Shown here piece after piece: positions 24,322 through 37,554 of a stretch of DNA of 37,737 nt. The translations under genes were made by a program, and so were the position numbers. The stretch's first letter is position 1, and every line of letters begins with the position of its first letter. Source of the DNA: a bacterium (GTDB lineage: Bacteria > Myxococcota_A > UBA9160 > UBA6930); the NCBI GenBank assembly GCA_024228115.1, contig JAAETT010000085.1, positions 1 through 37,737 of the forward strand. Direction: 5' to 3'. The notes under the pieces were generated by a model, which was not told the DNA's origin, made no database searches, and worked only from the letters and a program-made list of their open reading frames with translations.

Positions 24322-25572
24322 CTACTCCATGTGGATCGCGTCGCTGAACGCGGCGACGGATCCGACGAGTACGAGCATGGCACTGCCCAACACGATCAGC
24401 GAGCCGCTCGGTCCGAGGCTGGCAGTGGTGTAGCCCGCCAGGAGCGAGCCCACGGGTGCGGCGCCGAGGAAGCCGAGCTGGTTCACGGCCAGCACACGGG
24501 CGCGAGCGGGCCCAACCGCGCGTTCCTGGAAGAGTGTTCGGCTCATGTTCATGAAGACAGCGCCGCACAGGCCCCAGTCCAGAGTCGCCAGGACGGCACC
24601 CCAGAACGGCAGGCTCAGACCGGCCGTGATGAGGCAGAGCCCGCCGGTGCCCAGGGCCAGCATCAGGGCGCGGCCCTTGCGCCGGATTCCACCCCGCTTC
24701 AGCAGGACCAGGCTCCCCGCGATGGTCCCGATCGGGAACATCATCATCAACAACGAGAGCTGTTGGACGTTGCCTTGATAGTGGCCGTGAACCAGGTGCG
24801 GGAAGACGACGTGGTAGCTGCCCATGAAGAAGAGGCCGACGCCTGCGATCAGGATGAAGACCGGACGCAGTTCGGAGCTCCATACGAAGCGCACGCCTTC
24901 GGTCATCCCGGAGACCGAAAGCCGACGGTCGTCGTCCCGTTTCTGGGGAGGCCGACCGGGCAGCCGGCGAGCGAAGAGCGAACCGGCGGCGAGCACGACG
25001 GCCTGGGTCACCAGGGTGGCCTCCGTTCCGATCCAGCGGGCGAGGCCGACGATGCTCATGCCGATCGTCTGAGAGCCGAATTGCACGGCGGTCACACCGG
25101 TCACCGCGCGCTCTAGATCGGCCCCCGCCACGTCCGAAAGCAGGCTGTCACGGGCCGGGTTGCTGAAGGCGCTGCTCATGCCGACTCCCAGACCACAGAG
25201 CACCAGGACCGGCAGCGAGAGCCACCCGCCGGTGACGGCGGCGAGCAACAGGCCCACGGGCAGCACGCCGGCGAGGTGCGTCAGGATCAGCAAACGGCGG
25301 GGATCGAATCGATCGGCCACCGCGCCGCCCACCAGCAGGAATGCCAGATTCGAGATCAACACGGACATCTGTGCGATGCCGGTGTTCTCCGCGCTGGTCT
25401 GGAGTACGCCGACGACCAGCCATGGGAAGAGCACCTGCTGCATGCCCCAACCACCGAACCACGAAGAAATCGTCCCCAGATACGCGGGGAAGAGCCCGCG
25501 CCGATCGCTCTCATAGGCGCTATCGGTGCGGGAGGGTGTCGGTGCGCCGAGTCTGGGGTCGCGCTCGGCCAT
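24322..25572 (-). CDS. Major facilitator superfamily transporter (MFS_3 / EntS-like exporter)
   Basis: 416 residues with about 12 helices. FPAYLGTISSWFGGWGMQQVLFPWLV forms the first helix, followed by LVGGAVADRFDPRRLLIL, the MFS motif A loop between helices 2 and 3. The overall pattern, including GPARARVLAVNQLGFLGAAPVGSLLAG late in the protein, resembles the group of EntS-like siderophore or drug exporters. Substrate unknown. It is divergent from the LLM oxidoreductase (65-bp gap) and is followed by the SDR gene at 11 bp. The first 27 residues are hydrophilic and Arg-rich, so the true start could be slightly later. Confidence 0.9.
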   Translation of the reverse strand: MAERDPRLGAPTPSRTDSAYESDRRGLFPAYLGTISSWFGGWGMQQVLFPWLVVGVLQTSAENTGIAQMSVLISNLAFLLVGGAVADRFDPRRLLILTHLAGVLPVGLLLAAVTGGWLSLPVLVLCGLGVGMSSAFSNPARDSLLSDVAGADLERAVTGVTAVQFGSQTIGMSIVGLARWIGTEATLVTQAVVLAAGSLFARRLPGRPPQKRDDDRRLSVSGMTEGVRFVWSSELRPVFILIAGVGLFFMGSYHVVFPHLVHGHYQGNVQQLSLLMMMFPIGTIAGSLVLLKRGGIRRKGRALMLALGTGGLCLITAGLSLPFWGAVLATLDWGLCGAVFMNMSRTLFQERAVGPARARVLAVNQLGFLGAAPVGSLLAGYTTASLGPSGSLIVLGSAMLVLVGSVAAFSDAIHME

Positions 25573-25637
25573 GGGGCCATGGTACCGGTCGACCGAAGGG
25601 TCGCGTAGAGTCGCAGGGCGACAGGAAGGAAGCCCTC

Positions 25638-26519
25638 ATGCGCATTGGTCTGCAGGTTCCGAACTACACCTGGCCCGGGGGCCCCGAAGCCTTGGCCGGG
25701 ACGCTGCGGCAGATCGCCGAGACCGCCGATGAGGGGGGCTTCACCAGCCTGTGGGTGATGGACCACCTCTTCCAGATTCCCATGGTGGGCCCCGCCGAGA
25801 CCGACATGCTCGAGGGCTACGGCGCGCTCCACTACCTGGCGGGAATCACCCGGCGGGTTCGGCTCGGCACGATGGTGAGCGGAGTGACCTACCGCCATCC
25901 GGGCGTGCTGGTGAAGACCGTGAGCACCCTCGACGTCCTCTCCGGCGGGCGGGCGACCCTGGGAATCGGCGCCGCGTGGTTCGACCGGGAGCATCGCGGT
26001 CTGGGCATCCCCTATCCGCCGCTCGGGGAACGCTTCGAGCGCTTGGAAGAGACCCTGCAGATTGCGGAACAGATGTGGTCCGAAGATGACGGGCCCTTCG
26101 ACGGGCACCACTACCAGTTGGCCGAGACCCTCTGCGTTCCCCAGCCGCTCCAGCGCCCCAGGCCGCCGATCCTGATCGGTGGCATGGGCGAGCGGAAGAC
26201 GCTGCGCCTGGTCGCTCTCTACGCCGATGCCTGCAATCTCTTCACCCACGTAGGGATGGATGAGCTGGCCCGAAAACTCGATGTGCTGCGCGGCCATTGC
26301 GAAGACGTCGAGCGGGATTTCGATGAACTCGAGCGCACCAGCCTATCGACGATTCAGATGGGCCCCGAGCATATGAGTATCCCGGACGTCATCGCTCATT
26401 TTCGGGAACTCGCCGATCTCGGCATCCAGCAGGCCATCGTGAACCTGCCCAACGTCCACGACATCGCCCCGCTCGAGACCCTCGCCAAGGAGATCATCCC
26501 CGAAGTCGGGGGCTTCTGA
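25638..26519 (+). CDS. LLM-class (F420-type) flavin/F420-dependent oxidoreductase
   Basis: 293 residues, luciferase-like TIM barrel. It starts MRIGLQVPNYTWPGGPEAL, with SLWVMDHLFQIP, VSGVTYRHPGVLVKTV, DVLSGGRATLGIGAAWF and PPILIGGMGERKTLRL. These blocks match the subgroup usually annotated as F420-dependent (TIGR03560-like). The enzymes transfer hydride between F420H2 or FMNH2 and varied substrates. If F420 is the cofactor, the genome should encode its synthesis, which is not in this window. AGGAAGGA lies upstream of the ATG at a suitable distance. It is convergent with the CrtI-like oxidoreductase, 17 bp apart. Confidence 0.9.
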   Translation: MRIGLQVPNYTWPGGPEALAGTLRQIAETADEGGFTSLWVMDHLFQIPMVGPAETDMLEGYGALHYLAGITRRVRLGTMVSGVTYRHPGVLVKTVSTLDVLSGGRATLGIGAAWFDREHRGLGIPYPPLGERFERLEETLQIAEQMWSEDDGPFDGHHYQLAETLCVPQPLQRPRPPILIGGMGERKTLRLVALYADACNLFTHVGMDELARKLDVLRGHCEDVERDFDELERTSLSTIQMGPEHMSIPDVIAHFRELADLGIQQAIVNLPNVHDIAPLETLAKEIIPEVGGF

Positions 26520-26536: not shown

Positions 26537-28009
26537 CTACGTCGCGTTCAGGATGGCGCGGGCGCATTGTTGGCCCGAGGTGATGACGCCCGTGATGCCG
26601 CCACCGGGCTGGGTCCAGTGGCCGGCGAGGTAGAGGCCACGTAGGGGAGTCGTAGGGGCCGGGCGGCTGGGGCCCACCTGGGCCGGGCTGAGGGCGAAGC
26701 CGTAGATCGCACCGGATTCGTTTCGGGTGTAGCGCTCCATGGTGCGCGGGCTCGCACCCTCGCAAAAGCGCAGACTGTCTCGTAGGCCCGGAATGCGTGC
26801 GGCCGCCGCGTCGACCAGGGTGTCCGTCAGCACTTTCTTCCGTTCGCGCCAGGGGCCACCACCGGCACCTAACAAGGTCGTCAGCACGAGGAGGTGCTCA
26901 TCCGCGGGCGCAAGGGATGGATCGACGTGGGTTGGGATCGTGGCAGTGAACCAGCGCGGAGTTCCGGCCAATGCCGATGTGTAGGCGGCCTCGTGATCCG
27001 TCTCCTCGTAGAAGAAGGTCTCGTGGCTGGCTGGGGAGAGCGTGCTTCGTTCGACCGCCAGATAGGCGACAAAGGCAGAAATGGAGGGCTGCAAGCGTCG
27101 CAACTGCCGGCGGTAGCCGGCCGGAAGATGCTCCCGACCCACCAGTTCGAAGGCGGTCTGTCGGACGTCCGCATTCGAGATGACGACCGGGGCTTCGATG
27201 GGTTGGCCATTTTCGAGCACGATGCCCCGGACCGTGTCGCCTTCGACCGAGATCCGGCGCACCGGGCTGCGGAGCAGGATCTCACCGCCACGCTCTTCGA
27301 TCCCATGGGCCAGGGCCTTGGCCAGGTTCTGGAAGCTCCCCTGGGCATAGGTGGCGCCGGCTTCCAGGTAGGAGACCAGCATCGTCGACCAATACAGGAA
27401 GGAGAGCTTGGAGGGCGGCAACCCCAGGTAGGGCCAGAGGGTCGTGAGGGCCGCGCGGGTGGTCGGATCCTGGACGTGAGCATCGAGCACGTTGGCGACA
27501 GTGGATCGGCGGTGGCGAAGCAGGGCCGGGAAGCGGCTTGGGTTCCGAAGGACCTCGGTAGGCGACGAAAGACGGGAGGCGCGGTCGGTTTCCCGGGCGA
27601 TGTCCGCACATTCGGTGAGAAAGGAGCGGATGCCTTTTTCTTCCTCGGGAAAGGCTGCGACGTGGGCTTCGGCGAAGCCGTCCGGATCACCGGGAACGGC
27701 CAGGCAAAGGCCCGGAAGATCCACGGTGTAGAACGGCTCGACCGGAAGCCAGTTGCATTGGTCCGCCACGCCGAGATCCTCGAGCAGCGCTTCCACCCCG
27801 GCGCGGCCTACGACATGCACCGCTGAGTCGAAGAGATGCCGGCCTCGGCGAAAGGCGTGGGCGTACCCTCCGACCCGATCGTGGCGCTCGACGACCAGCA
27901 CGCGTCGGCCCGCCTGGGCGAGGAGCGCGGCTGCGGTCAAGCCCCCGATTCCGCTGCCGACGATGGCAACGTCATAGCTCTCTCTCTGCGCTTCCGAGTG
28001 AAATCGCAA
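26537..28009 (-). CDS. CrtI / phytoene-desaturase-like FAD oxidoreductase
   Basis: 490 residues. N-terminal FAD site VAIVGSGIGGLTAAALLAQAG (GSGIGG at 18-23) followed by VVERHDRVGGYAHAF. The C-terminus GLYLAGHWTQPGGGITGVITSG is the second dinucleotide motif of the phytoene desaturase/carotene isomerase/retinol saturase superfamily (COG1233). It probably saturates, desaturates or isomerises a polyene or lipid. The start appears to be TTG at 28009, 15 bp after the halogenase-like gene's stop, so the two are co-transcribed. No phytoene synthase or other carotenoid gene is in the window, so a carotenoid role is not supported locally. Confidence 0.88.
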   Translation of the reverse strand: MRFHSEAQRESYDVAIVGSGIGGLTAAALLAQAGRRVLVVERHDRVGGYAHAFRRGRHLFDSAVHVVGRAGVEALLEDLGVADQCNWLPVEPFYTVDLPGLCLAVPGDPDGFAEAHVAAFPEEEKGIRSFLTECADIARETDRASRLSSPTEVLRNPSRFPALLRHRRSTVANVLDAHVQDPTTRAALTTLWPYLGLPPSKLSFLYWSTMLVSYLEAGATYAQGSFQNLAKALAHGIEERGGEILLRSPVRRISVEGDTVRGIVLENGQPIEAPVVISNADVRQTAFELVGREHLPAGYRRQLRRLQPSISAFVAYLAVERSTLSPASHETFFYEETDHEAAYTSALAGTPRWFTATIPTHVDPSLAPADEHLLVLTTLLGAGGGPWRERKKVLTDTLVDAAAARIPGLRDSLRFCEGASPRTMERYTRNESGAIYGFALSPAQVGPSRPAPTTPLRGLYLAGHWTQPGGGITGVITSGQQCARAILNAT

Positions 28010-28024
28010 GGCAAGGACCGCGGG

Positions 28025-29272
28025 TCAGCGGATCTCCAGCTCGGCTGGATCGTTCCCAGCCAGGCCGTAGCGGCACATGAAATCGACCAGGCCCACGCTG
28101 TAGCGCTTCGTCGTGCCCTCGCCCGTGAAGATGCGCGGCATGTGCTTGCGGAAGTGGAAGTCCATCATTCGGCCGATCGGCGTATTCCGCACGTATTCAC
28201 CGACCCGGAACAGCGTCAGCAGCTGGCCGCTGTAGTAGTAGTCGGCGACGCGCTGCCAGACCGTGAGGTTGCGAAGCACGTAGTCCTGGTATTTCTGCAT
28301 GGCACGGTCGCCGCCTTTCAGCAGGGCCGCAGCCAGGAAATCAGCGCCCTGCATTCCGATCAGCATGCCGCTGGAGAAGACCGGGTCGACGAATCCGAAT
28401 GCATCGCCCACGAGCGACCAATTCGGCCCGAACCCGCGCTCGGTGCGCAGTTGGTAGTTCTTGTAGCGCATGACGGGCGTCACACGCTTCGCGTCCTTGG
28501 ACCACTCACGGGTGTTGGCATCGGCCTGGAGGTAGGCGTCGAATTGCTCCTCGGCGGTCTGCCCGAATTTTCGGATGAACTCGCTGCCGATCACCAGGCC
28601 GACCGAAACACGATCGCGTAGAGGAATCCGCCAGCCCCAGCCGTGCTCGAGGCGATCGGTATGGACATCGCCAGGGATTTTCACCGGGACGCCTTCGAGG
28701 TGGGCGTGCAGGGCGTCGTCCTTTCGCGCGCCTTCGATCGTCGGCAGGTCGAGGAGCCGGGCGATCAAGCGCGTTCGACCGGTTGCGTCGATGATCCAAT
28801 CCGGTTTGCCGCCAAGGACGGGTAGCGCTGCTTCGAGGCTGGCCTCATCCAGGCGCAGATGCTCGCCATCGTCGCGCTCCAGGCCGGCGGAATGTTCGAT
28901 CTGGTGGGCGCCTGCCTTCTTCGCGGCCTCCAGCAGGGTATCGTCGAAACGGGCGCGCGGGACGTTGTAGGAATAGGTCGTCTTGGTAGAGGGGGCTTCG
29001 TAGAATCTGAAGCTCATGCCGTCTTGGAGGCTGAAGGCGAAGGAAGCGCCGCCCTTGAACTGGCTGTAGGAAGAGACTTCCTTCTCGACGCCTAGCTTGC
29101 GCAGGTACGGCACGATCGCCGGCACGAGGGATTCGCCTACGATGATCGGTGGCCGCTTGCCGCGCGTGAAGAGCGCCACCTTAACGCCCGCGCGGGCCAG
29201 GTACGTGGCGACGGCTGAACCCGCCGGGCCGCCACCCAGTACCGCAACCTTTCGGATCGCTTGCTTTGCCAT
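28025..29272 (-). CDS. Flavin-dependent halogenase-like monooxygenase
   Basis: 415 residues. FAD site LGGGPAGSAVATYLARAG (GGGPAG at 13-18), then GESLVPAIVPYLRKLGV as in halogenases. Lys73 in QFKGGASF fits the halogenase active-site Lys. WGWRIP (212-217) matches the WxWxIP signature, and F294-x-x-P297-x-x-S300-x-G302 in GFVDPVFSSG matches the second signature, FxxPxxSxG. The C-terminal helical part resembles the CmlS/PltA branch, which acts on carrier-bound or lipid substrates. A hydroxylating relative remains possible. It faces the ACP gene across 113 bp. No flavin reductase is nearby. Confidence 0.8.
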   Translation of the reverse strand: MAKQAIRKVAVLGGGPAGSAVATYLARAGVKVALFTRGKRPPIIVGESLVPAIVPYLRKLGVEKEVSSYSQFKGGASFAFSLQDGMSFRFYEAPSTKTTYSYNVPRARFDDTLLEAAKKAGAHQIEHSAGLERDDGEHLRLDEASLEAALPVLGGKPDWIIDATGRTRLIARLLDLPTIEGARKDDALHAHLEGVPVKIPGDVHTDRLEHGWGWRIPLRDRVSVGLVIGSEFIRKFGQTAEEQFDAYLQADANTREWSKDAKRVTPVMRYKNYQLRTERGFGPNWSLVGDAFGFVDPVFSSGMLIGMQGADFLAAALLKGGDRAMQKYQDYVLRNLTVWQRVADYYYSGQLLTLFRVGEYVRNTPIGRMMDFHFRKHMPRIFTGEGTTKRYSVGLVDFMCRYGLAGNDPAELEIR

Positions 29273-29285
29273 GGGTATCGACCGC

Positions 29286-29322
29286 CCTCCGTGGCACCGG
29301 AGTCTAGCCTCGGGTACGGAGG
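29286..29322. promoter_or_regulatory. Inverted repeat in the divergent halogenase/ACP control region
   Basis: CCTCCGT at 29286-29292 is the exact complement of ACGGAGG at 29316-29322, with a 23-bp spacer. It sits in the 113-bp region between two divergent transcription units of the putative small-molecule cluster, the expected place for a shared operator. No clear -10 or -35 pairs are visible. Confidence 0.3.
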
Positions 29323-29333
29323 ACGCGAGCGAT

Positions 29334-29348
29334 GGGGCGTGCCGCCCC
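29334..29348 (+). promoter_or_regulatory. GC hairpin in the ACP leader
   Basis: GGGGCG at 29334-29339 and CGCCCC at 29343-29348 form a perfect 6-bp stem with a 3-nt loop, extendable by two further pairs including a G-T wobble. It lies 37 bp before the ACP start and would be in its mRNA leader if transcription starts upstream. Its role is unknown. Confidence 0.3.
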
Positions 29349-29385
29349 GTGCCATTCCCGAGCGGGTGCGCGAAACTCCGCGCCG

Positions 29386-29640
29386 ATGTCGGATTGGACG
29401 CACGAAAAACTGACGGCCCGCGTGTTCGAGATTCTCCGGGATGAGCTGCTGGAAGTCGGCGAAGAGTTTACTCCTCGCTCGGACCTGGTTGGGGCGGGGC
29501 TCGATTCCCTCGCCGTCACCCAACTCATGCTCGCGATCGAAGAGAGCACGGGCGTCTGGGTGGACGAGAGCTTGCTCACGCCGGAGAATCTGGAAACGGC
29601 GGAGACCCTGGCCGCCTGCGTTCACGAGCAGTTGCAGTAG
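29386..29640 (+). CDS. Free-standing acyl carrier protein
   Basis: 84 residues, acidic, with the phosphopantetheine site VGAGLDSLAVTQ; the attachment residue is Ser41 in D-S-L. The surrounding helices (ARVFEILRDELLEVGEEF and ESTGVWVDESLLTPENLETAETLA) are those of a discrete ACP/PCP. The ATG at 29386 places the first helix normally; an in-frame ATG at 29332 would add 18 residues with no domain match. It is the first gene of a four-gene operon (acyltransferase, FAD oxidoreductase, acyl ligase), so it is probably the carrier loaded by that ligase instead of the fatty-acid synthase ACP. Confidence 0.9.
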   Translation: MSDWTHEKLTARVFEILRDELLEVGEEFTPRSDLVGAGLDSLAVTQLMLAIEESTGVWVDESLLTPENLETAETLAACVHEQLQ

Positions 29641-29650
29641 GCCTCGGGCG

Positions 29651-30985
29651 TTGTCCCCCACCGCCGCCTCTTCCATTCCGCTTACCGGCGCCGATTGTTT
29701 CCTGCGCGCGTTCGATGACGAGGTGCGCCGGCGGGCCGGAGCCAGTCATGCCTCGCAGTTGGTCCTGCGCCTCGGGCCGGGCTTCGATCTACCGGCCTTC
29801 GAGAAGACGCTCGCTGAAGCTGCTGCCGCCCATCCGATCCTGCACGCCCCGATTCGTCGGCGGATGGGCCTGGGCGCGCCGGCCTATCAGCTGGACCGTG
29901 CGCGAGCTGAGCATTCGCCGAGGGTGCAGACCCATCCGCATCAGGACGGCAGTGCTCTTCCGGAACTCTTCTTCGAGCGAATGAATGAGCGCTTCCGCGC
30001 CGAGCGCGGCGAACTGCTTCGGGTGGACGTCATCCCGCGTCCTCACGGTACCGATCTGGCCATGACGTGGCTGCACATGCTTCTGGACGGAGCGGGAAGC
30101 GAAGCCTTTGTGGAGTGGCTGGAACTCGTCAACCGGGGCGAACGCAAGATCCATGAGTTGCCACCCGACGACGTCGTCACCTCGCCGGGACTGCCGAAGG
30201 GGCTGACCTCCAAGGAGCGAGGGCGCCGCGCCACTGCGTGGCAAGCCTGGATGGCTTCGATGGCGGATCCTTGCCCGCGCTCCCTGGCCGGGCCGTTGAC
30301 GAACGCGGCCCAGGACCTCCGCTACGACTTGCTCACGTTGGCCGAGGATGAGACGGAGCGCGCCACCGCGCGCGCCAAACAGAAGGCGGGCTTCCTGACT
30401 CCGATGCTCTTCTATCTGGCCTGTGCCATTCGTGCACACGATGCAGTGTTCCGGGCGCGGGGCATCGATCCGGGCGCCTTCGTCGTACCGCTGCCTGTGA
30501 ACATCCGTCCAAAGGGCTCGGAGCACGCGATCTTCAGGACGCGGGTATCGCTGCTTTGGTTTCGGGTGTTGCCGGAGCAGGTCGTGGATCTCGATGGGCT
30601 GATCGGAGAGCTCAAGCGGCAACGGGTGGATGCGATCAAGGCGGGACGCATCGAGGCCGGCGTGATCGCGATGGATTACGCACGTTTCGCTCCCATGCGC
30701 GTCTACGCGCATATGGCACGGCGCGCGAAGAAGGGCGAGCTGTGCTCGTTCTTCTTCGCATTCACTGGAGAATTTGCCGGCGGGATCGATCGCTTCTTCG
30801 GCGCGCCGATCGAGAACGCCTTTCATGCGCCCCCGGTGCCGACATCGCCCGGCAGCAGCGCCGCGATGAGCTTGCGCGGCGGACGCTTGAACGTGAGCCA
30901 CGTGCAGCAAGCGGGTTTGTTCAGCGATGAGGAGAGGGCGCTCTTCCAGCGAACGCTGCGAGCCGATCTGCTCGGCGAGACATGA
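29651..30985 (+). CDS. Stand-alone condensation-domain-type acyltransferase
   Basis: 444 residues, assuming TTG at 29651, which is 10 bp after the ACP stop and directly before the conserved IPLTGADCFLRAFDD opening. It has the two-lobed CoA-dependent acyltransferase fold. The active-site motif is LHMLLDG: His142, Asp146, Gly147, with the first His of HHxxxDG replaced by Leu. The latter half has FVVPLPVNIRPKGSE and FFFAFTGEFAGGIDRFFG. Relatives include NRPS condensation domains, PapA-type and alcohol acyltransferases, which make amide or ester bonds from a carrier- or CoA-bound acyl group. The stop overlaps the next start as ATGA (30982-30985). Confidence 0.78.
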   Translation: MSPTAASSIPLTGADCFLRAFDDEVRRRAGASHASQLVLRLGPGFDLPAFEKTLAEAAAAHPILHAPIRRRMGLGAPAYQLDRARAEHSPRVQTHPHQDGSALPELFFERMNERFRAERGELLRVDVIPRPHGTDLAMTWLHMLLDGAGSEAFVEWLELVNRGERKIHELPPDDVVTSPGLPKGLTSKERGRRATAWQAWMASMADPCPRSLAGPLTNAAQDLRYDLLTLAEDETERATARAKQKAGFLTPMLFYLACAIRAHDAVFRARGIDPGAFVVPLPVNIRPKGSEHAIFRTRVSLLWFRVLPEQVVDLDGLIGELKRQRVDAIKAGRIEAGVIAMDYARFAPMRVYAHMARRAKKGELCSFFFAFTGEFAGGIDRFFGAPIENAFHAPPVPTSPGSSAAMSLRGGRLNVSHVQQAGLFSDEERALFQRTLRADLLGET

Positions 30986-32250
30986 GGGAGCGCTATGACG
31001 TCGGTGTCATCGGTGGTGGTTCCGCCGGCGTGGCAGCGGCCCTGGCGGCCGCGAGCGGCGGAGCGCGTACGCTGTTGGTCGAAGCCAGCGATCGCCTGGG
31101 GGGCAACGCCAGCCTTGCCCTGGTGCATACGATCTGCGGGCTCTACCTGCCAGCAAAGGATGATCTTCCCTATTTCGTTCACGCGGGGTTTCCGCGGAGG
31201 TTCTCCCAGAAGCTCTGTCGCAACGGCGTTGCCGGACTTCCGGAGCGCGCGGGCCGGGTCTTCTACCTGCCGATCGATCCGCTTGGTTATGCCCGCAGCC
31301 TCTCGGAGGAGGTAGCGGCCGAAGCAGGGTTGGACGTCGCGCACGGCGCCCTCGTCGAGAGCGTCGAGGAAACGGCCGCGGGCTTTCATCTGCAATTCGG
31401 CGCGGAGGCCGCGGAGGTGGGTCTGCTCATCGACGCCTCGGGGGACGCGGCGGCTGCATTGCGGCTCGGAGCGGAATGCAGCAACGATCCCGGTGACGGT
31501 TTGCAATCTCCTTCCTACATCGTCGCTCTCGAAGAGGTCGAGACGGCTGGCCTCGAGGGTTTTGCACGGCTGCAGCTGAGTACCGCATTGGCGGGAGCCG
31601 TACGACACGGTGAGCTCCCGGAGGGCTGCGAGTCCGTCGTCATCCGTCCCGGCCTCACGCCTGGCGAGGCCTACATCACGCTCGGAGTGCCGAAGCTCCC
31701 GGATCGTCCCTACGTTCCGCTCGATCCCGGTTACCGAAGTGTGCTCGAAGAGCAGGCCCGCCACGCAGCAGAGACGGTCATCGAGTTCCTGCGGAACACA
31801 CGGGAGCCATTCGAAAAAGCACGTGTCACGGGCTGGCCCGAGCGCGTCGGCCTTCGAGAGACGCGTCGCCTCCGCACGCGCATCGAGCTGGATGCCGAAG
31901 ACGTGCTGCAGGGCCGCCGTCGTGAGGACGAGGTTGCGCTCTCGGCCTGGCCGATCGAGATGTGGCGCGATCATCGCCGTGCGCGCTTCCGGCATCCATC
32001 CGGCCCCTGTGGTGTTCCCCTCGGTTCTCTCGTGAGCCGAAGTCATGAACGACTCGGCTGCGCGGGCCGGTGCATGGGCGGGAGCCAGGAAGCCCTGGGC
32101 GCATTGCGTGTGATCGGTACGGCCCTGGCCACCGGCGAGGCCATCGGTGCGGCCGCGGCGCTGGCGGCCGACGCGGGCAGCACGTTTGCCCAGGTGGATC
32201 CGATAGCCGTCAGGGAACGGACCTTCTCCGGAGCAGGGGGACCGAAATGA
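30982..32250 (+). CDS. FAD-dependent oxidoreductase (FAD_oxidored family)
   Basis: 422 residues. N-terminal YDVGVIGGGSAGVAAALAAASGG (GGGSAG at 11-16) then EASDRLGGNASLALVHTICGLYLP, and a second nucleotide-contact strand VGLLIDASGDAAAA near the middle. The C-terminal GGSQEALGALRVIGTALATGEAIG completes the FAD site. It fits the FAD_oxidored/FAD-binding group of dehydrogenases, of unknown substrate. It overlaps the acyltransferase before it and the ligase after it by ATGA (30982 and 32247), so all are translationally coupled and probably act on the same carrier-bound intermediate. Confidence 0.85.
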   Translation: MRERYDVGVIGGGSAGVAAALAAASGGARTLLVEASDRLGGNASLALVHTICGLYLPAKDDLPYFVHAGFPRRFSQKLCRNGVAGLPERAGRVFYLPIDPLGYARSLSEEVAAEAGLDVAHGALVESVEETAAGFHLQFGAEAAEVGLLIDASGDAAAALRLGAECSNDPGDGLQSPSYIVALEEVETAGLEGFARLQLSTALAGAVRHGELPEGCESVVIRPGLTPGEAYITLGVPKLPDRPYVPLDPGYRSVLEEQARHAAETVIEFLRNTREPFEKARVTGWPERVGLRETRRLRTRIELDAEDVLQGRRREDEVALSAWPIEMWRDHRRARFRHPSGPCGVPLGSLVSRSHERLGCAGRCMGGSQEALGALRVIGTALATGEAIGAAAALAADAGSTFAQVDPIAVRERTFSGAGGPK

Positions 32251-33692
32251 CGGAGTCGGTCCTGGATGCCATTCGGGCGCAAGCGGACGAACACCCGAAT
32301 GCCGTGGCTTGGATCGCCGATCGGGGGGAGGGTGGATCCGAGGCCCGGTGTTATGCCGAAATGATGCAACGGGTCGACGCGATCACGATCGATCTCGTCG
32401 CCGCAGGCATCGGGTCGGGCGAGCGCTGGGGGTTGATCGCGCCCCAGGGCGAGGAATTCATCGAGCAGGCGTTGGCGATTCTCGCCGCGAACGCATGTCT
32501 GGTCCCGATTCCCGAAGATACGGCGGGTCCGGCGCTCGAAGCCTTTGCCGAGCGCGCTCGCCTGCACGGCCTGGTGTGTCTCGGGCGGGACGGGAGCCTC
32601 GAGATGACGGCCCGAGAAGCACCGGGGGCACTCGATGGGCAGGGCGACGAGGCGTTTCGAGCGCTGCATCCGGCCTATCTGCGCTTCACGTCCGGAACCA
32701 CCCACCGGCGGAAGGGAGTCATCCTCGGGCACGCAAGGATTCTGGAGCGTCTCGCGGCGGCCAACCGTGGCCTCGGCATCGGGCCGGGAGATCGCATCCT
32801 CTGGCTTCTGCCGATGGCCCACCACTTCGTGGTCTCGATCCTTCTCTACCTGCGCTTCGGGGCGACGATCCTGTTGCCGAAGAGTTCCCTGGCGAAGGAT
32901 GTGCTGGCGTTTGCCGGGCGCGAAGAGGCGACCGTCTTCTACGCCTCTCCCTACCACTACAACCTGATGGCCAAGGATGCAGGCGAACAGCAGATGCGGG
33001 ATGTCCGCCTGGCGATCTCCACGGCCGAAGGGTTGCGACCCGAAATCGCCGAGCGGTTTCGGGCGCGGTTCGATCTGCCCCTACGCCAGGCTCTTGGCAT
33101 CATCGAGGTCGGTCTTCCCGTGATCGATCTCGCAGATCCGAAGCCGGGTGCGCTGGGCCGGCCCTTGCCTGACTACGATGTCTGGCTTCGTGTGGATGAC
33201 GGCGCTGCCCTCGAGGAATCGTCACCCGAGCGCACCGGCGAAATCTGCATCCGCGGTCCGGGCCTCTTCGATGCCTACCTCGAACCGTGGACGCCTTCGG
33301 CCAGCGTGCTCGAGCCCGACGGCTTCCGCACCGGGGACCAGGGTTTCTTCGATTCTGAAGGCCGCTTGTACCTGGCCGGCCGGCGAACGAATCGCATCAA
33401 CATGGCCGGCATGAAATTCTTCAGTGAAGAAGTCGAGGCGGTGCTCGACCGGCTTCCGGGAGTGCGCCGCAGTCGCGTCTCGGCACAGGCCCATCCCCAC
33501 CTGGGCGAAATTCCCGTGGCGGAGCTCGAACTCGACGAAGGTGCCGACGCGCCGGAGCGCAAGGCTCTGATGGCCCATTGCCGGCAGCATCTCGCGACCT
33601 ACAAAGTGCCGCGAAAGTTCGACGTCGTGGATGCGCTTCCCTTGACCGCGACAGGCAAACTCGAGCGGATTTCGGATTCACGGGAGGAATAA
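32247..33692 (+). CDS. Acyl-adenylating ligase (acyl-CoA/acyl-ACP synthetase family)
   Basis: 481 residues, ANL superfamily. The phosphate loop is RFTSGTTHRRKG (TSGTT 148-152), with His-Arg-Arg where Gly-x-Pro is normal. Other motifs are QALGIIEVGLP in the A5 position, GEICIRGPG, FRTGDQGFFD, GRRTNRINMAGMKFFSEEVE and the catalytic Lys471 in LTATGKLER. All catalytic positions seem present, so it should activate a carboxylic acid with ATP and pass it to a thiol, most likely the ACP encoded in the same operon. The substrate cannot be predicted. GGGGG lies before the ATG, which overlaps the previous stop. It is convergent with the glycosyltransferase gene. Confidence 0.88.
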   Translation: MTESVLDAIRAQADEHPNAVAWIADRGEGGSEARCYAEMMQRVDAITIDLVAAGIGSGERWGLIAPQGEEFIEQALAILAANACLVPIPEDTAGPALEAFAERARLHGLVCLGRDGSLEMTAREAPGALDGQGDEAFRALHPAYLRFTSGTTHRRKGVILGHARILERLAAANRGLGIGPGDRILWLLPMAHHFVVSILLYLRFGATILLPKSSLAKDVLAFAGREEATVFYASPYHYNLMAKDAGEQQMRDVRLAISTAEGLRPEIAERFRARFDLPLRQALGIIEVGLPVIDLADPKPGALGRPLPDYDVWLRVDDGAALEESSPERTGEICIRGPGLFDAYLEPWTPSASVLEPDGFRTGDQGFFDSEGRLYLAGRRTNRINMAGMKFFSEEVEAVLDRLPGVRRSRVSAQAHPHLGEIPVAELELDEGADAPERKALMAHCRQHLATYKVPRKFDVVDALPLTATGKLERISDSREE

Positions 33693-33706: not shown

Positions 33707-35083
33707 TCAGGCGGTACCCGTTGTTTCGATCCGGGCAAGGGCCCGGCGCGTGGAGGCGAGGCTCCACCCTTCACGGAGTGCAGACTCCGGAACGAAGGGC
33801 GCCTTTCGGATCGCCTCCTCCAGCGGGACCATTGGAAAATGACGATCGCGTAGGTGGTGGATGAAGCGAAGCGTGCGCAGCGCGTCGAATCGCTCGTGGT
33901 GGTGGCGGAGGCTCTGCGTGCGTCCGGCTTCGGCTGGACCGAGGGCGCCAAGTTCATCCAGGAGATCATGCAGAAGCGCGGCGTCGACATTGGCGGTGGC
34001 GAGGGTTTCGGCTGCGTGTTCGGAGAGGCAGTCGCGAAGGCTCCGGGTGGTTGAAACAAGGGAGCCCAGGGTACGAAGCCAGACCCCCAGCCACGTGAAG
34101 ATCCGCGGGTCATAGGCGGGGTAGAACTCGTCGGCTTCGATGCGCTCGAGTTCCTTCTTGATCCCGGCGCCGGTACCGAAGGGAACGCGGCTCGAAACGC
34201 GGCCGCTCAGGAGCATGGGTTCGCCCCGCAGCGCGCCAACCGGCCCCAGCTTGGCGAGTTTCGCGAGCATGTGAAAATCTTCCGCCGCCTGCCGCTTCGG
34301 GAATCCGCGCACCTTTGCATAGGCGAGGGGAGAGAGCGCGAGTGTGCTGCCAATCGTGTGGAATGCATAGGGAGAGCCCGCGCTGCGAAGACCGAGAACG
34401 TAATAGCGGAGGAAGATCTCGTAGCGAAGTGCGGCCCGCGCGGTTTCGGGGTCGGGTTCCAGCACGTGACAGAAGTCGTAGGTGAACGCGGCAGGACCAT
34501 CCTCGAGAGGGATCTCGCGAGCGGCCCCGAGCGGTCGGCTGAAGTAGTCGGCCGGAAAGGAGACGTCGGCGTCGCTGCAATGGATCCAGGGAGATTCGAT
34601 TCTTCCGGCCGACCACAAAGCGAGCGCGACATCCGCACCGATCTTTCGCGCCAACCCGACGCCTTGCCCTTCGGGCAGGACTCGACCCGAACGGGTCCGA
34701 TCGATGACCAGCAGATCGCCGCGCGGATGGGGACGGCGCGTCATGAACGTTCGCTGCCCGGTTGCTCCCGGCCCGACGTCGACCAACGCGGCCAGCGAAT
34801 CCTGATTGGCTTCGCATATCCACTCGGGAGATGACTTCGTGTCGTTGACCACGACGATGATCAGGATCTCTCCGCTGGGTCCCTCCGGAACACCAGAAAG
34901 TGTCTGTAGCAGGCCCTCGCCCTCGCCGTGGGAGGGAATGCAGAGCACGTGGCCGTAGCGCCGCGCCTCGGGCAGGCACGCGCGGATCTGTCCAGCCTCG
35001 GGCTCGGCCCACTGCTCCAGGTACTTCCGGACTGGCTTCCAGGCCGCGGCTTCCCTGGCCGACGCTGCAGCAACCGGCTTCAT
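33707..35083 (-). CDS. GT2-type (GT-A fold) glycosyltransferase-like protein
   Basis: 458 residues. Residues about 44-180 show a nucleotide-sugar fold: HVLCIPSHGEGEG, ILIIVVVNDT, GVGLARKIGAD and the metal site HCSDADVSFP (DAD at 171-173). The acceptor-side acidic motif is AAEDFHMLAKL (E268-D269), followed by GRVSSRVPFGTG. Residues beyond about 330 are helical and Leu/Arg-rich with no domain I recognise. It should transfer a sugar to an unknown acceptor in the cytosol. I chose the ATG at 35083; the frame is open upstream inside the MiaE-like gene region. It is third in the minus-strand set after the kinase and MiaE-like genes. Confidence 0.72.
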   Translation of the reverse strand: MKPVAAASAREAAAWKPVRKYLEQWAEPEAGQIRACLPEARRYGHVLCIPSHGEGEGLLQTLSGVPEGPSGEILIIVVVNDTKSSPEWICEANQDSLAALVDVGPGATGQRTFMTRRPHPRGDLLVIDRTRSGRVLPEGQGVGLARKIGADVALALWSAGRIESPWIHCSDADVSFPADYFSRPLGAAREIPLEDGPAAFTYDFCHVLEPDPETARAALRYEIFLRYYVLGLRSAGSPYAFHTIGSTLALSPLAYAKVRGFPKRQAAEDFHMLAKLAKLGPVGALRGEPMLLSGRVSSRVPFGTGAGIKKELERIEADEFYPAYDPRIFTWLGVWLRTLGSLVSTTRSLRDCLSEHAAETLATANVDAALLHDLLDELGALGPAEAGRTQSLRHHHERFDALRTLRFIHHLRDRHFPMVPLEEAIRKAPFVPESALREGWSLASTRRALARIETTGTA

Positions 35084-35115
35084 CGTCTGAGCGTCATCGC
35101 AAAGCCCGTCCCATC

Positions 35116-35688
35116 TCAGTGGAGCGCGGGCCGAATCGCCAGGCCTTGGAGGATCTTTGCTTCCGCGATCACCAGTGCTTCCAGACGTTCTTCGACGGAG
35201 GCCCGGGGGAAATACTCGTTTGCCAGCTCGATGAAGAGAGCATCGTGCCTGGCCTCCGACGCGGTGATCTCGCGATAGAAACCTTGCAGTGGCGGATCTG
35301 TCAGCGCCTCCGCGATCAGGCCGAAGCGTTCGCATCCTCGCGCTTCGACGATTCCGCTCACCAGGAGTCGGTCGAGGAAGTAGTCGTCCCGTCCACTGCG
35401 AATCTCCGCTCGCAACGCCCCGACGTAGGGATCCTTGGTGTCGCTTCCCAGGACGAGTCCGCGCTCCGCGACCCGTAGATAGACCTGGTAGAAGTGCTCG
35501 AGTTCCTCACGCGCCAGATCCATCATCGCTGCCACCAGCCGTTGGCAATCCGGATAGTGGGTGATCAAAGAGAGGGCTACCGCCGACGCCTTGCGTTCGG
35601 CTGCTGCGTGGTCGAGCAGGAACGCATCGAAGTCCGCCAGGACCGCGCTGAGCCAGGCCGGCGATGACGCGGCTCGCAGGGTGATCAT
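35116..35688 (-). CDS. miaE: tRNA-(ms2io6A)-hydroxylase, MiaE-like
   Basis: 190 residues, ferritin-like four-helix protein. The diiron ligands are visible: E31 in HAAAERKA, E62-x-x-H65 in EELEHF, E120 in ARGCERF and E145-x-x-H148 in SEARHDA. The block ITHYPDCQRLVAAMMDLAREELEHFYQVY matches the short MiaE form found in pseudomonads and others. MiaE hydroxylates the isopentenyl side chain of ms2i6A37 in tRNA with O2. The ATG at 35688 has no strong ribosome-binding site. The phosphotransferase gene ends 44 bp upstream and the GT starts 32 bp downstream on the same strand. Confidence 0.87.
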   Translation of the reverse strand: MITLRAASSPAWLSAVLADFDAFLLDHAAAERKASAVALSLITHYPDCQRLVAAMMDLAREELEHFYQVYLRVAERGLVLGSDTKDPYVGALRAEIRSGRDDYFLDRLLVSGIVEARGCERFGLIAEALTDPPLQGFYREITASEARHDALFIELANEYFPRASVEERLEALVIAEAKILQGLAIRPALH

Positions 35689-35732
35689 GACGGGCAGGGT
35701 AATCCAACTGCGCCAAGGGCCGCAGGCGAACG

Positions 35733-36707: not shown

Positions 36708-36846
36708 GTACCGATGGTGGGCGACGCGACGGTTGCGTCAACGCCGGAAGGCATCTCAGCTGACAACGCGGACGGGAACACGAATTCCCCTTTAAATCCA
36801 GCCGGGTGCAGCAATGTGTGACATTTTCGGCCCGCCCGAACCACGC

Positions 36847-36871
36847 TTCTTCTCTGAGACGGAGAGAAGAA
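36847..36871 (+). promoter_or_regulatory. Perfect 9-bp hairpin enclosing the ribosome-binding site of the PEP-CTERM gene
   Basis: TTCTTCTCT at 36847-36855 is exactly complementary to AGAGAAGAA at 36863-36871, with a 7-nt loop. The ribosome-binding GGAGAG (36861-36866) lies in the loop edge and 3' arm, and the arm ends on the A of the ATG at 36871. In mRNA the stem would hide the start site, so translation may depend on melting or a bound factor. Confidence 0.5.
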
Positions 36872-37554
36872 TGCTGAGACGACGGCTGAGAACCGCCCAA
36901 CAGCGGGTCCGAACCATCCACCTTGCTCTGGCGCCTCTGGCGCTATTGGGAACGTTGTTTCTCGCCGCTCCCGGGGCGGCTCTCGTGATCGATTTCGAGG
37001 CGGCGCCGAACGGTTCCGACGCCGCTTCGTTCGATTGGGGCGGGGTCGCAGTCAGCTCCGCGCTGGTCCTCGACGAGACCACCATCGAGGCCCTCACGCT
37101 CCATTCAGCGGTTGGGACCTGGGCGACCTCCGGCAGTCAGGGCCTGTTCAACAGTCTCGCTCCGGATTTGAGCTTCACGTCGGCCGTTCCGTTCACGGCG
37201 TTCTCGCTCAGCTTTCTCAGTCTCCCCAGGCCAGATCAGGGGTACTACCAGTTGCTCGCCCAGCTCTGGTCGAATGGTCAGCTGGTCGACGAGTTCCTGA
37301 GCGATGGGCAGACGACCGGTGACAGCGGTCTGCACGAAGGCGTCTTCTCCGCCAGCGGCTTTCAGGCCGATCGCCTGGTGATCCAGGCCGTCGAGCAGAC
37401 GAGCTGTGCTCTCTGCCTCCAGCCGCCTCTCGCTGTCCGCGACAGTTTCTTCGTGGACGATCTGCAGCTCCAGACCGTTCCCGAGCCGGCAACGGCAATG
37501 ATTCTGCTGCTCGGAGCCGCCGGCGTGGCCGCCCGAGCCAGGAGGCTTCGATGA
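36871..37554 (+). CDS. PEP-CTERM sorting-domain protein
   Basis: 227 residues. The N-terminus is Arg-rich (MLRRRLRTAQQRVRTIH) followed by a hydrophobic signal core ending near APGAALV. The mature part is a beta-rich domain with many Ser, Thr, Asp and Gly and a CxxC (SCALCLQ). The C-terminus is a textbook PEP-CTERM signal: VPEPATAMILLLGAAGVAARARRLR, that is VPEP, a hydrophobic helix and a basic tail. Exosortase would cut at this site and pass the protein to the cell surface or EPS matrix; no exosortase is in the window. The ATG at 36871 has GGAGAG at 8 nt; an ATG at 36814 has only a weak site. Confidence 0.87.
   Translation: MLRRRLRTAQQRVRTIHLALAPLALLGTLFLAAPGAALVIDFEAAPNGSDAASFDWGGVAVSSALVLDETTIEALTLHSAVGTWATSGSQGLFNSLAPDLSFTSAVPFTAFSLSFLSLPRPDQGYYQLLAQLWSNGQLVDEFLSDGQTTGDSGLHEGVFSASGFQADRLVIQAVEQTSCALCLQPPLAVRDSFFVDDLQLQTVPEPATAMILLLGAAGVAARARRLR

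Follow-up and report, generated by a model that had tools for sequence, protein, structure and literature searches.

Halogenase-like gene and divergent ACP cassette

The window, which is the whole stretch of DNA analyzed (37,737 nucleotides), carries a gene for a FAD-dependent halogenase-like protein (P0001) oriented divergently from a group of genes headed by an acyl carrier protein (ACP; Table 1). The ACP, already noticed across the divergent region in the initial annotation, was confirmed by its Pfam match. The genes of the condensation-like protein and the FAD oxidoreductase overlap by 4 bp (30982-30985), and the latter overlaps the ligase gene by ATGA; because of these overlaps the three genes were considered operon-like.

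Table 1. Coordinates of the halogenase-like gene, its signatures and the neighboring genes of the cassette in the window
Feature	Position	Strand	Evidence
Halogenase-like gene, FAD-dependent, 415 aa from ATG (P0001)	28025..29272	-	PF04820 1.6e-27; PDB halogenases up to 1.9e-37; motifs
K73 codon, aligned with catalytic Lys of solved halogenases	29054..29056	-	alignment
WGWRIP (WxWxIP), residues 212-217	28622..28639	-	sequence, alignment
FVDPVFSSG (FxxPxxSxG), residues 294-302	28367..28393	-	sequence, alignment
Divergent intergenic region, 113 bp, between halogenase-like gene and ACP operon	29273..29385	.	coordinates
Acyl carrier protein, 84 aa, GLDSL phosphopantetheine site	29386..29640	+	PF00550 3.9e-8
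Condensation-like acyltransferase, HxxxDG, TTG start inferred	29651..30985	+	PF00668 weak, 5.9e-4, below cut-off; motif conserved
FAD-dependent oxidoreductase PF12831	30982..32250	+	E 4.5e-66
Stand-alone AMP-forming carboxylic acid ligase	32247..33692	+	PF00501 1.1e-46, PF13193; LPMAHHF stretch
CrtI-like (phytoene desaturase family) flavoprotein, directly downstream of halogenase-like gene	26537..28009	-	TIGR02734 191 bits, below cut-off 238.1; 4dgk 1.2e-24

P0001 matched the Pfam Trp_halogenase model (PF04820) with 96.9 bits (cut-off 21), whereas all its NCBIfam matches were below cut-off (109.6 bits for QhpG, NF049967, against a curated cut-off of 240; 104.1 for CmlS; 91.5 for geranylgeranyl reductase, TIGR02032, against a curated cut-off of 158.8; and 74.0 for LodB). 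The top PDB matches were halogenases (8zop, 1.9e-37; ChlB4, 7.2e-31; PltA, 7.3e-30), followed by 3nix, a flavoprotein, and Mpy16. In addition to the signatures of Table 1, the protein contains GESLVP and a Rossmann GxGxxG FAD site (GGGPAG, residues 13-18), G13 and G15 being invariant in the family alignment. An AF2 model of P0001 was unusable (pLDDT 34.1). Substitution rates were dN 0.062 and dS 0.433 against the closest orthologue and dN 0.116 and dS 0.689 against the next one (dN/dS ~0.14-0.17); dN was thus far below dS in both comparisons, indicating that the gene is under purifying selection. Given this selection, the Pfam match and the retention of the signatures throughout the family, the motif set of P0001 is more than a chance occurrence.

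The cassette formed by the CrtI-like, halogenase-like, ACP, condensation-like, FAD oxidoreductase and AMP ligase genes was kept together in relatives, according to tblastn maps. The ACP and halogenase-like genes were adjacent and divergent in 17 genomes (the window, L017, L018, L057, L061, L021-L026, L032, L083-L086, and L092), in some of which the contig ends inside the cassette; the region between them measured 113 bp also in G003, 156 bp in G004, and 123 bp in G002. The other 17 of the 34 family genes did not face an ACP: two had one at ~7 kb (L027 and L034) and 15 were of other types, located beside a 518-aa halogenase-like gene (5/34), near KS/CLF genes (5/34), or alone. The ACP site GLDSL was intact in 20/20 loci; HxxxDG of the condensation-like protein was present in 18/20 and LP(M/L)AHHF of the ligase in 16/20, the corresponding stretch being cut off or unaligned in the others. 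In one genome (G350, L088) the cassette occurred without an ACP-facing halogenase-like copy, a different family copy being located 4 kb away, as for a tailoring step. There, the ACP (L088:5071-5508) directly faces the CrtI-like gene, through either natural loss or ancestral absence of the halogenase-like gene.

The ligase LPMAHHF stretch presumably resembles those of aryl-acid ligases. A substrate could not be predicted from this enzyme, whose PDB matches were unspecific (oxalate-, succinylbenzoate- and malonyl-CoA ligases and salicylate-AMP ligase). No description of the cassette was found in the literature titles and abstract openings covered, subscription journals being mostly outside that scope.

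Other genes were observed around the cassette. A luciferase-like monooxygenase (25341-26519, +) lies beside the CrtI-like gene and was kept beside the cassette in 4/4 same-genus relatives (L017, L018, L057, and L020). At the other end, the ligase gene is adjoined by an ORF of ~540 aa (33707-35335, -) with no match in Pfam or NCBIfam, and beyond the ligase there are a MiaE-like diiron protein (35116-35706, -; PF06175 6e-43, with the NCBIfam score below cut-off), which may be an oxygenase with another function, and a protein that has a PEP-CTERM sorting motif at its end (36814-37554, +). An RPE65-type carotenoid oxygenase is encoded downstream of the CrtI-like gene in one relative (L025:12162-13496).

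Aryl-polyene genes in the surroundings of the family

Aryl-polyene (APE) pigments are known from Proteobacteria and Bacteroidetes. Of the 17 loci in which the halogenase-like gene faces the ACP, 12 carried APE-type genes (KS, CLF-like KS, aromatic amino acid lyase, MMPL exporter, DUF3261, PEMT, and ligase-ApeI fusion), considering the fetched stretch and, for G002 and G004, also the neighboring stretch of the same contig. The five loci without them were the window, L017, L083, L086, and L092, the contigs of L017 and L083 being only 3.8 and 9.1 kb long. Neither KS, CLF, lyase, MMPL, DUF3261 nor ligase-ApeI genes were found in any of the eight non-ACP-facing family loci of 13-20 kb (L028, L029, L031, L033, L035, L087, L089, and L090); L087 gave two acyltransferase-type matches. 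A P0001 orthologue and the full APE core were present on a single contig in G002 and G004, which belong to the same genus.

The genome of the window has its own APE core, on contig C491 (L056), where type II KS and CLF, KR, ligase-ApeI dehydratase, ACP, and acyltransferase genes, by which such clusters were recognized, were found together. This core comprises KS, CLF, a second KS, a 518-aa halogenase-like protein, KR, acyltransferases, GT2, ligase-ApeI, ACP, lyase, and PEMT. The window constitutes the whole of contig C85, C491 is a separate contig of the same 700-contig draft, and the genes flanking the two stretches differ. A flavin reductase (PF01613) is also encoded in this genome, unlinked to P0001. 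The 518-aa protein represents a second, longer halogenase-like type (~515-525 aa where complete; KNG Lys, YWIWxIP, and FPDPxYSPG), found at L056:4502-6058 (C491) and at L028:10821, L029:8329, L034:268, and L035:8308; it is located in the APE core and beside the 55%-identical P0001 paralogue on C371.

Surroundings were also inspected for nine outside relatives. Five of them were located in APE clusters (L037, L039, L040, L042, and L045), L038 adjoined MMPL and CrtI-like genes, and L041, L043, and L044 were outside such context. A weak RPE65 match (25% identity) was seen at L041:15250, ~5 kb from the Variovorax relative.

Halogenase genes in APE clusters have been described before. In the parts of the sources seen, the clusters for xanthomonadin, a brominated pigment, hold a halogenase gene in Xanthomonas, whereas those of Lysobacter, whose pigment is non-brominated, are without one (PMC3691225), and arcA is listed as a halogenase of the arcuflavin cluster in Azoarcus (PMC3949708). 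For E. coli, no such halogenase gene appears in the consulted part of the table of APE genes (PMC8253772), and nothing on aryl polyenes was found in the part seen of PMC8269204. Because of the Xanthomonas and Azoarcus examples, a halogenase in an APE cluster is an already known kind of thing. Compared by description only, and as far as these sources were seen, the xanthomonadin and arcuflavin clusters share with our loci a halogenase gene in an aryl-polyene setting but, unlike the cassette, are described with neither a CrtI-like gene nor a second ligase/ACP module (PMC3691225, PMC3949708). The clade and cassette found here are a variant of this kind, and the aryl-polyene context was missed in the initial annotation.

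The arrangement of the loci also bears on the substrate. A halogenase whose substrate is the polyene, complete or still being extended, or a free aryl acid, instead of one on the adjacent ACP, would overlap in chemistry with the explanation that we prefer, halogenation of an ACP-bound acyl group, and would differ in the substrate. Such an enzyme would fit the family members that do not face an ACP and lie near KS/CLF or beside the 518-aa gene, as well as the A. baumannii and Roseomonas relatives, which occur inside APE clusters without the cassette. However, the same ACP was maintained in divergent pairing in 17 genomes and was better conserved between genera (~65-80% identity) than the halogenase-like protein (51-62%). 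A substrate other than the ACP-bound one was thus considered possible but doubtful, and an acyl group on the ACP remained the preferred candidate. The initial annotation had also proposed a carrier-bound substrate, as for PltA or CmlS; the conserved ACP pairing supports the carrier, whereas the phylogeny (see below) does not make P0001 an orthologue of those enzymes.

Signature residues and phylogenetic placement

The family set consisted of 34 extracted genes, P0001 included, with 45-88% identity to P0001. One of these (L091) is split in two, with each piece spanning part of the alignment, so that 35 alignment rows correspond to 34 genes. Further family genes were found outside the extracted set (G002:C69 and the short fragments G001:C182, G010:C87, G027:C79, G019:C247, and G019:C56). 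The family was common in 60 related genomes, often with 2-3 copies per genome; in the phylum, 24 of 377 genomes gave matches with E values no higher than 1e-80, and these comprised 20 from the same order, 2 from elsewhere in the class, and 2 from another class. Plasmid relatives with names were all below 60% identity to P0001, with best rows at ~28-33%.

WGWRIP, FVDPVFSSG, and the lysine in QFKGG (K73), reported in the initial annotation, are present in the 415-aa ORF, and the lysine, WxWRIP, and FxDPxxSxG were kept in 34/34 family genes (for L091, through its two partial pieces). All three signatures occurred in 8/8 solved halogenases aligned and none of them in the controls, namely a bona fide QhpG (Trp hydroxylase) of the same phylum (L093, 426.5 bits against the cut-off of 240) and two geranylgeranyl reductase (GGR)-like proteins of the window's own genome (L068 and L069). 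A total of 61 positions were invariant in the family, 26 of which were identical in all eight solved halogenases; among these 26, K73, A187, I216, P217, S223, G225, V227, F294, and S300 differed in QhpG L093. By alignment only, K73 corresponds to RadH K74 and CndH K76. K74, D325, and F328 are reported as essential in RadH in the part of the source seen (PMC10377541); in the alignment they correspond to K73, D296, and F299 of P0001, the equivalent of F299 being Leu in two family members (L033 and L083). The part seen of a further source proposes WxWxIP as a guard against hydroxylation by halogenases (PMC10696468). Since the signatures were invariant in the family and absent from QhpG L093, they separate halogenases from the known hydroxylase here, and the earlier preference for a halogenase over a simple hydroxylase held at the sequence level. 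The signatures fall short of proving activity, because 3nix and the A. baumannii APE flavoprotein carry them too, and we know of no evidence that the products of these proteins are halogenated. Together with the Caballeronia (L040) and B. multivorans (L042) proteins, which, like that of A. baumannii (L037), come from APE clusters, 3nix has the lysine and both motifs as P0001 does, but this group shows ~29-31% identity to P0001, belongs to a separate clade, and presents GNA in place of GDA ahead of the F of FxxPxxSxG.

Three trees were built, with 49, 57, and 50 rows. The 57-row tree was without the two L091 pieces, Bmp2, and GGRlike_L069, and the 50-row tree additionally without five rows of the 518-aa type, L020_4926, L090_9145, L085_9075, and L023_7079 (L020_4926, L023_7079, and L085_9075 being fragment rows). 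The QhpG-like proteins L079, L080, and L082 and the GGR L094 were outside the trees, and the sole QhpG-like row included (L081) fell among halogenases. In all three trees the family was a single clade (97-100% bootstrap), apart from PltA/ChlB4/Mpy16, from CndH/CmlS/RadH/8zop, from the 3nix/A. baumannii group, and from the Roseomonas/Variovorax/C. zhejiangensis group. This rules out P0001 as a PltA or CmlS orthologue. The last of those groups was the weak sister of the family in the 50-row tree (67/66); its proteins (L039, L041, and L045) have the same one-residue-shorter Lys loop, and two of the three are in APE clusters, but they show 30-33% identity to P0001 and no cassette.

The best 57-row tree placed the family with the halogenases (support 82/92), and in the 50-row tree all halogenase-type rows, P0001 included, split from QhpG and GGR (78/90). 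Outgroup branches were long in the trees. AU tests did not reject joining the family with QhpG (p 0.367), with GGR (p 0.431, or 0.255 with two GGR rows), or with both (p 0.413). A grouping with geranylgeranyl reductases had been named in the initial annotation as evidence against a halogenase; the best trees favor the halogenases, whereas the AU tests leave joining with GGR or QhpG unrejected (p 0.26-0.43). Since these groupings are unrejected, the trees are suggestive rather than decisive of a placement with halogenases.

These results also allow weighing a hydroxylase or monooxygenase of the superfamily that, with the same fold and motifs, would hydroxylate an acyl or aryl group carried by the ACP or the polyene. 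The aryl heads of APEs are often oxygenated, QhpG gave the top NCBIfam score of P0001, although below its cut-off, and the AU tests tolerate the family together with QhpG, alone or with GGR. QhpG, a dihydroxylase, is of the same fold class (PMC7876137, seen in part), but the same-phylum L093 lacks the lysine and both motifs that are invariant in the family, and hydroxylation therefore appeared rather unlikely as compared with halogenation. A flavoprotein of the geranylgeranyl reductase type, saturating double bonds of the polyene, would suit a polyene substrate, the CrtI-like neighbor, the TIGR02032 match, and the unrejected AU grouping, but it was judged very unlikely from the motifs, all three of which are absent from L068 and L069, from the model cut-off, and from the position of the family with halogenases in the best tree.

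Predicted role in a halogenated aryl-polyene pathway

Taken together, the catalytic residues, the ACP pairing, the conserved cassette, and the linkage to APE genes in related genomes point, with moderate confidence, to P0001 as a FAD-dependent halogenase of the two-component type, belonging to a clade of its own and predicted to work on an ACP-bound acyl group in an APE (xanthomonadin/flexirubin-like) pathway. Its activity and substrate are predicted from these genomic features. Most likely, P0001 would chlorinate or brominate a building block that is bound to a carrier and belongs to a carotenoid-like aryl polyene pigment of these uncultured, myxobacteria-related bacteria.

The AMP ligase would load a carboxylic, probably aryl, acid onto the ACP, and a general flavin reductase encoded elsewhere would supply FADH2. 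On P0001, FADH2, O2, and halide would give HOX, which would pass to K73, and this residue would steer the halogenation of the substrate on the ACP. The acyl group may be adjusted by the FAD oxidoreductase (PF12831) and would then be transferred by the condensation-like enzyme to an acceptor, which may be the polyene, whose saturation the CrtI-like enzyme could adjust.

More tentatively, and with low confidence, these uncultured Myxococcota may produce a halogenated aryl-polyene hybrid, in which a second ligase-ACP module, apart from that of the polyene itself, would load, oxidize, and halogenate a block that the condensation-like enzyme joins to the polyene, with the CrtI-like desaturase acting on a polyketide polyene. 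Flexirubin, where a dialkylresorcinol is joined to a polyene, serves as the model for joining by the condensation-like enzyme; to our knowledge, CrtI-like desaturases are so far known from carotenoids.

Among known systems, the carrier-bound pyrrole halogenases PltA, ChlB4, and Mpy16 have in common with P0001 the lysine, the motifs, and the logic of an ACP partner; as in the PltA type, the P0001 locus includes genes for a stand-alone carrier protein and an adenylating enzyme, here the AMP ligase. They differ in belonging to another clade and in the oxidizing partner. In the PltA system this is PltE, of the acyl-CoA-dehydrogenase type, whereas the P0001 locus has the PF12831 flavoprotein and no partner of the PltE type was seen. 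CmlS, CndH, RadH, and 8zop display the same motif set as P0001, with the essential RadH residues conserved, but were in a different clade in the three trees.

The family constitutes a distinct clade of predicted halogenases linked to a defined ACP and ligase, and this link opens the way to an assay with an ACP-bound substrate. The findings suggest that uncultured Myxococcota may have aryl-polyene pigments, supplemented by halogenation and a flavoenzyme of the carotenoid type.
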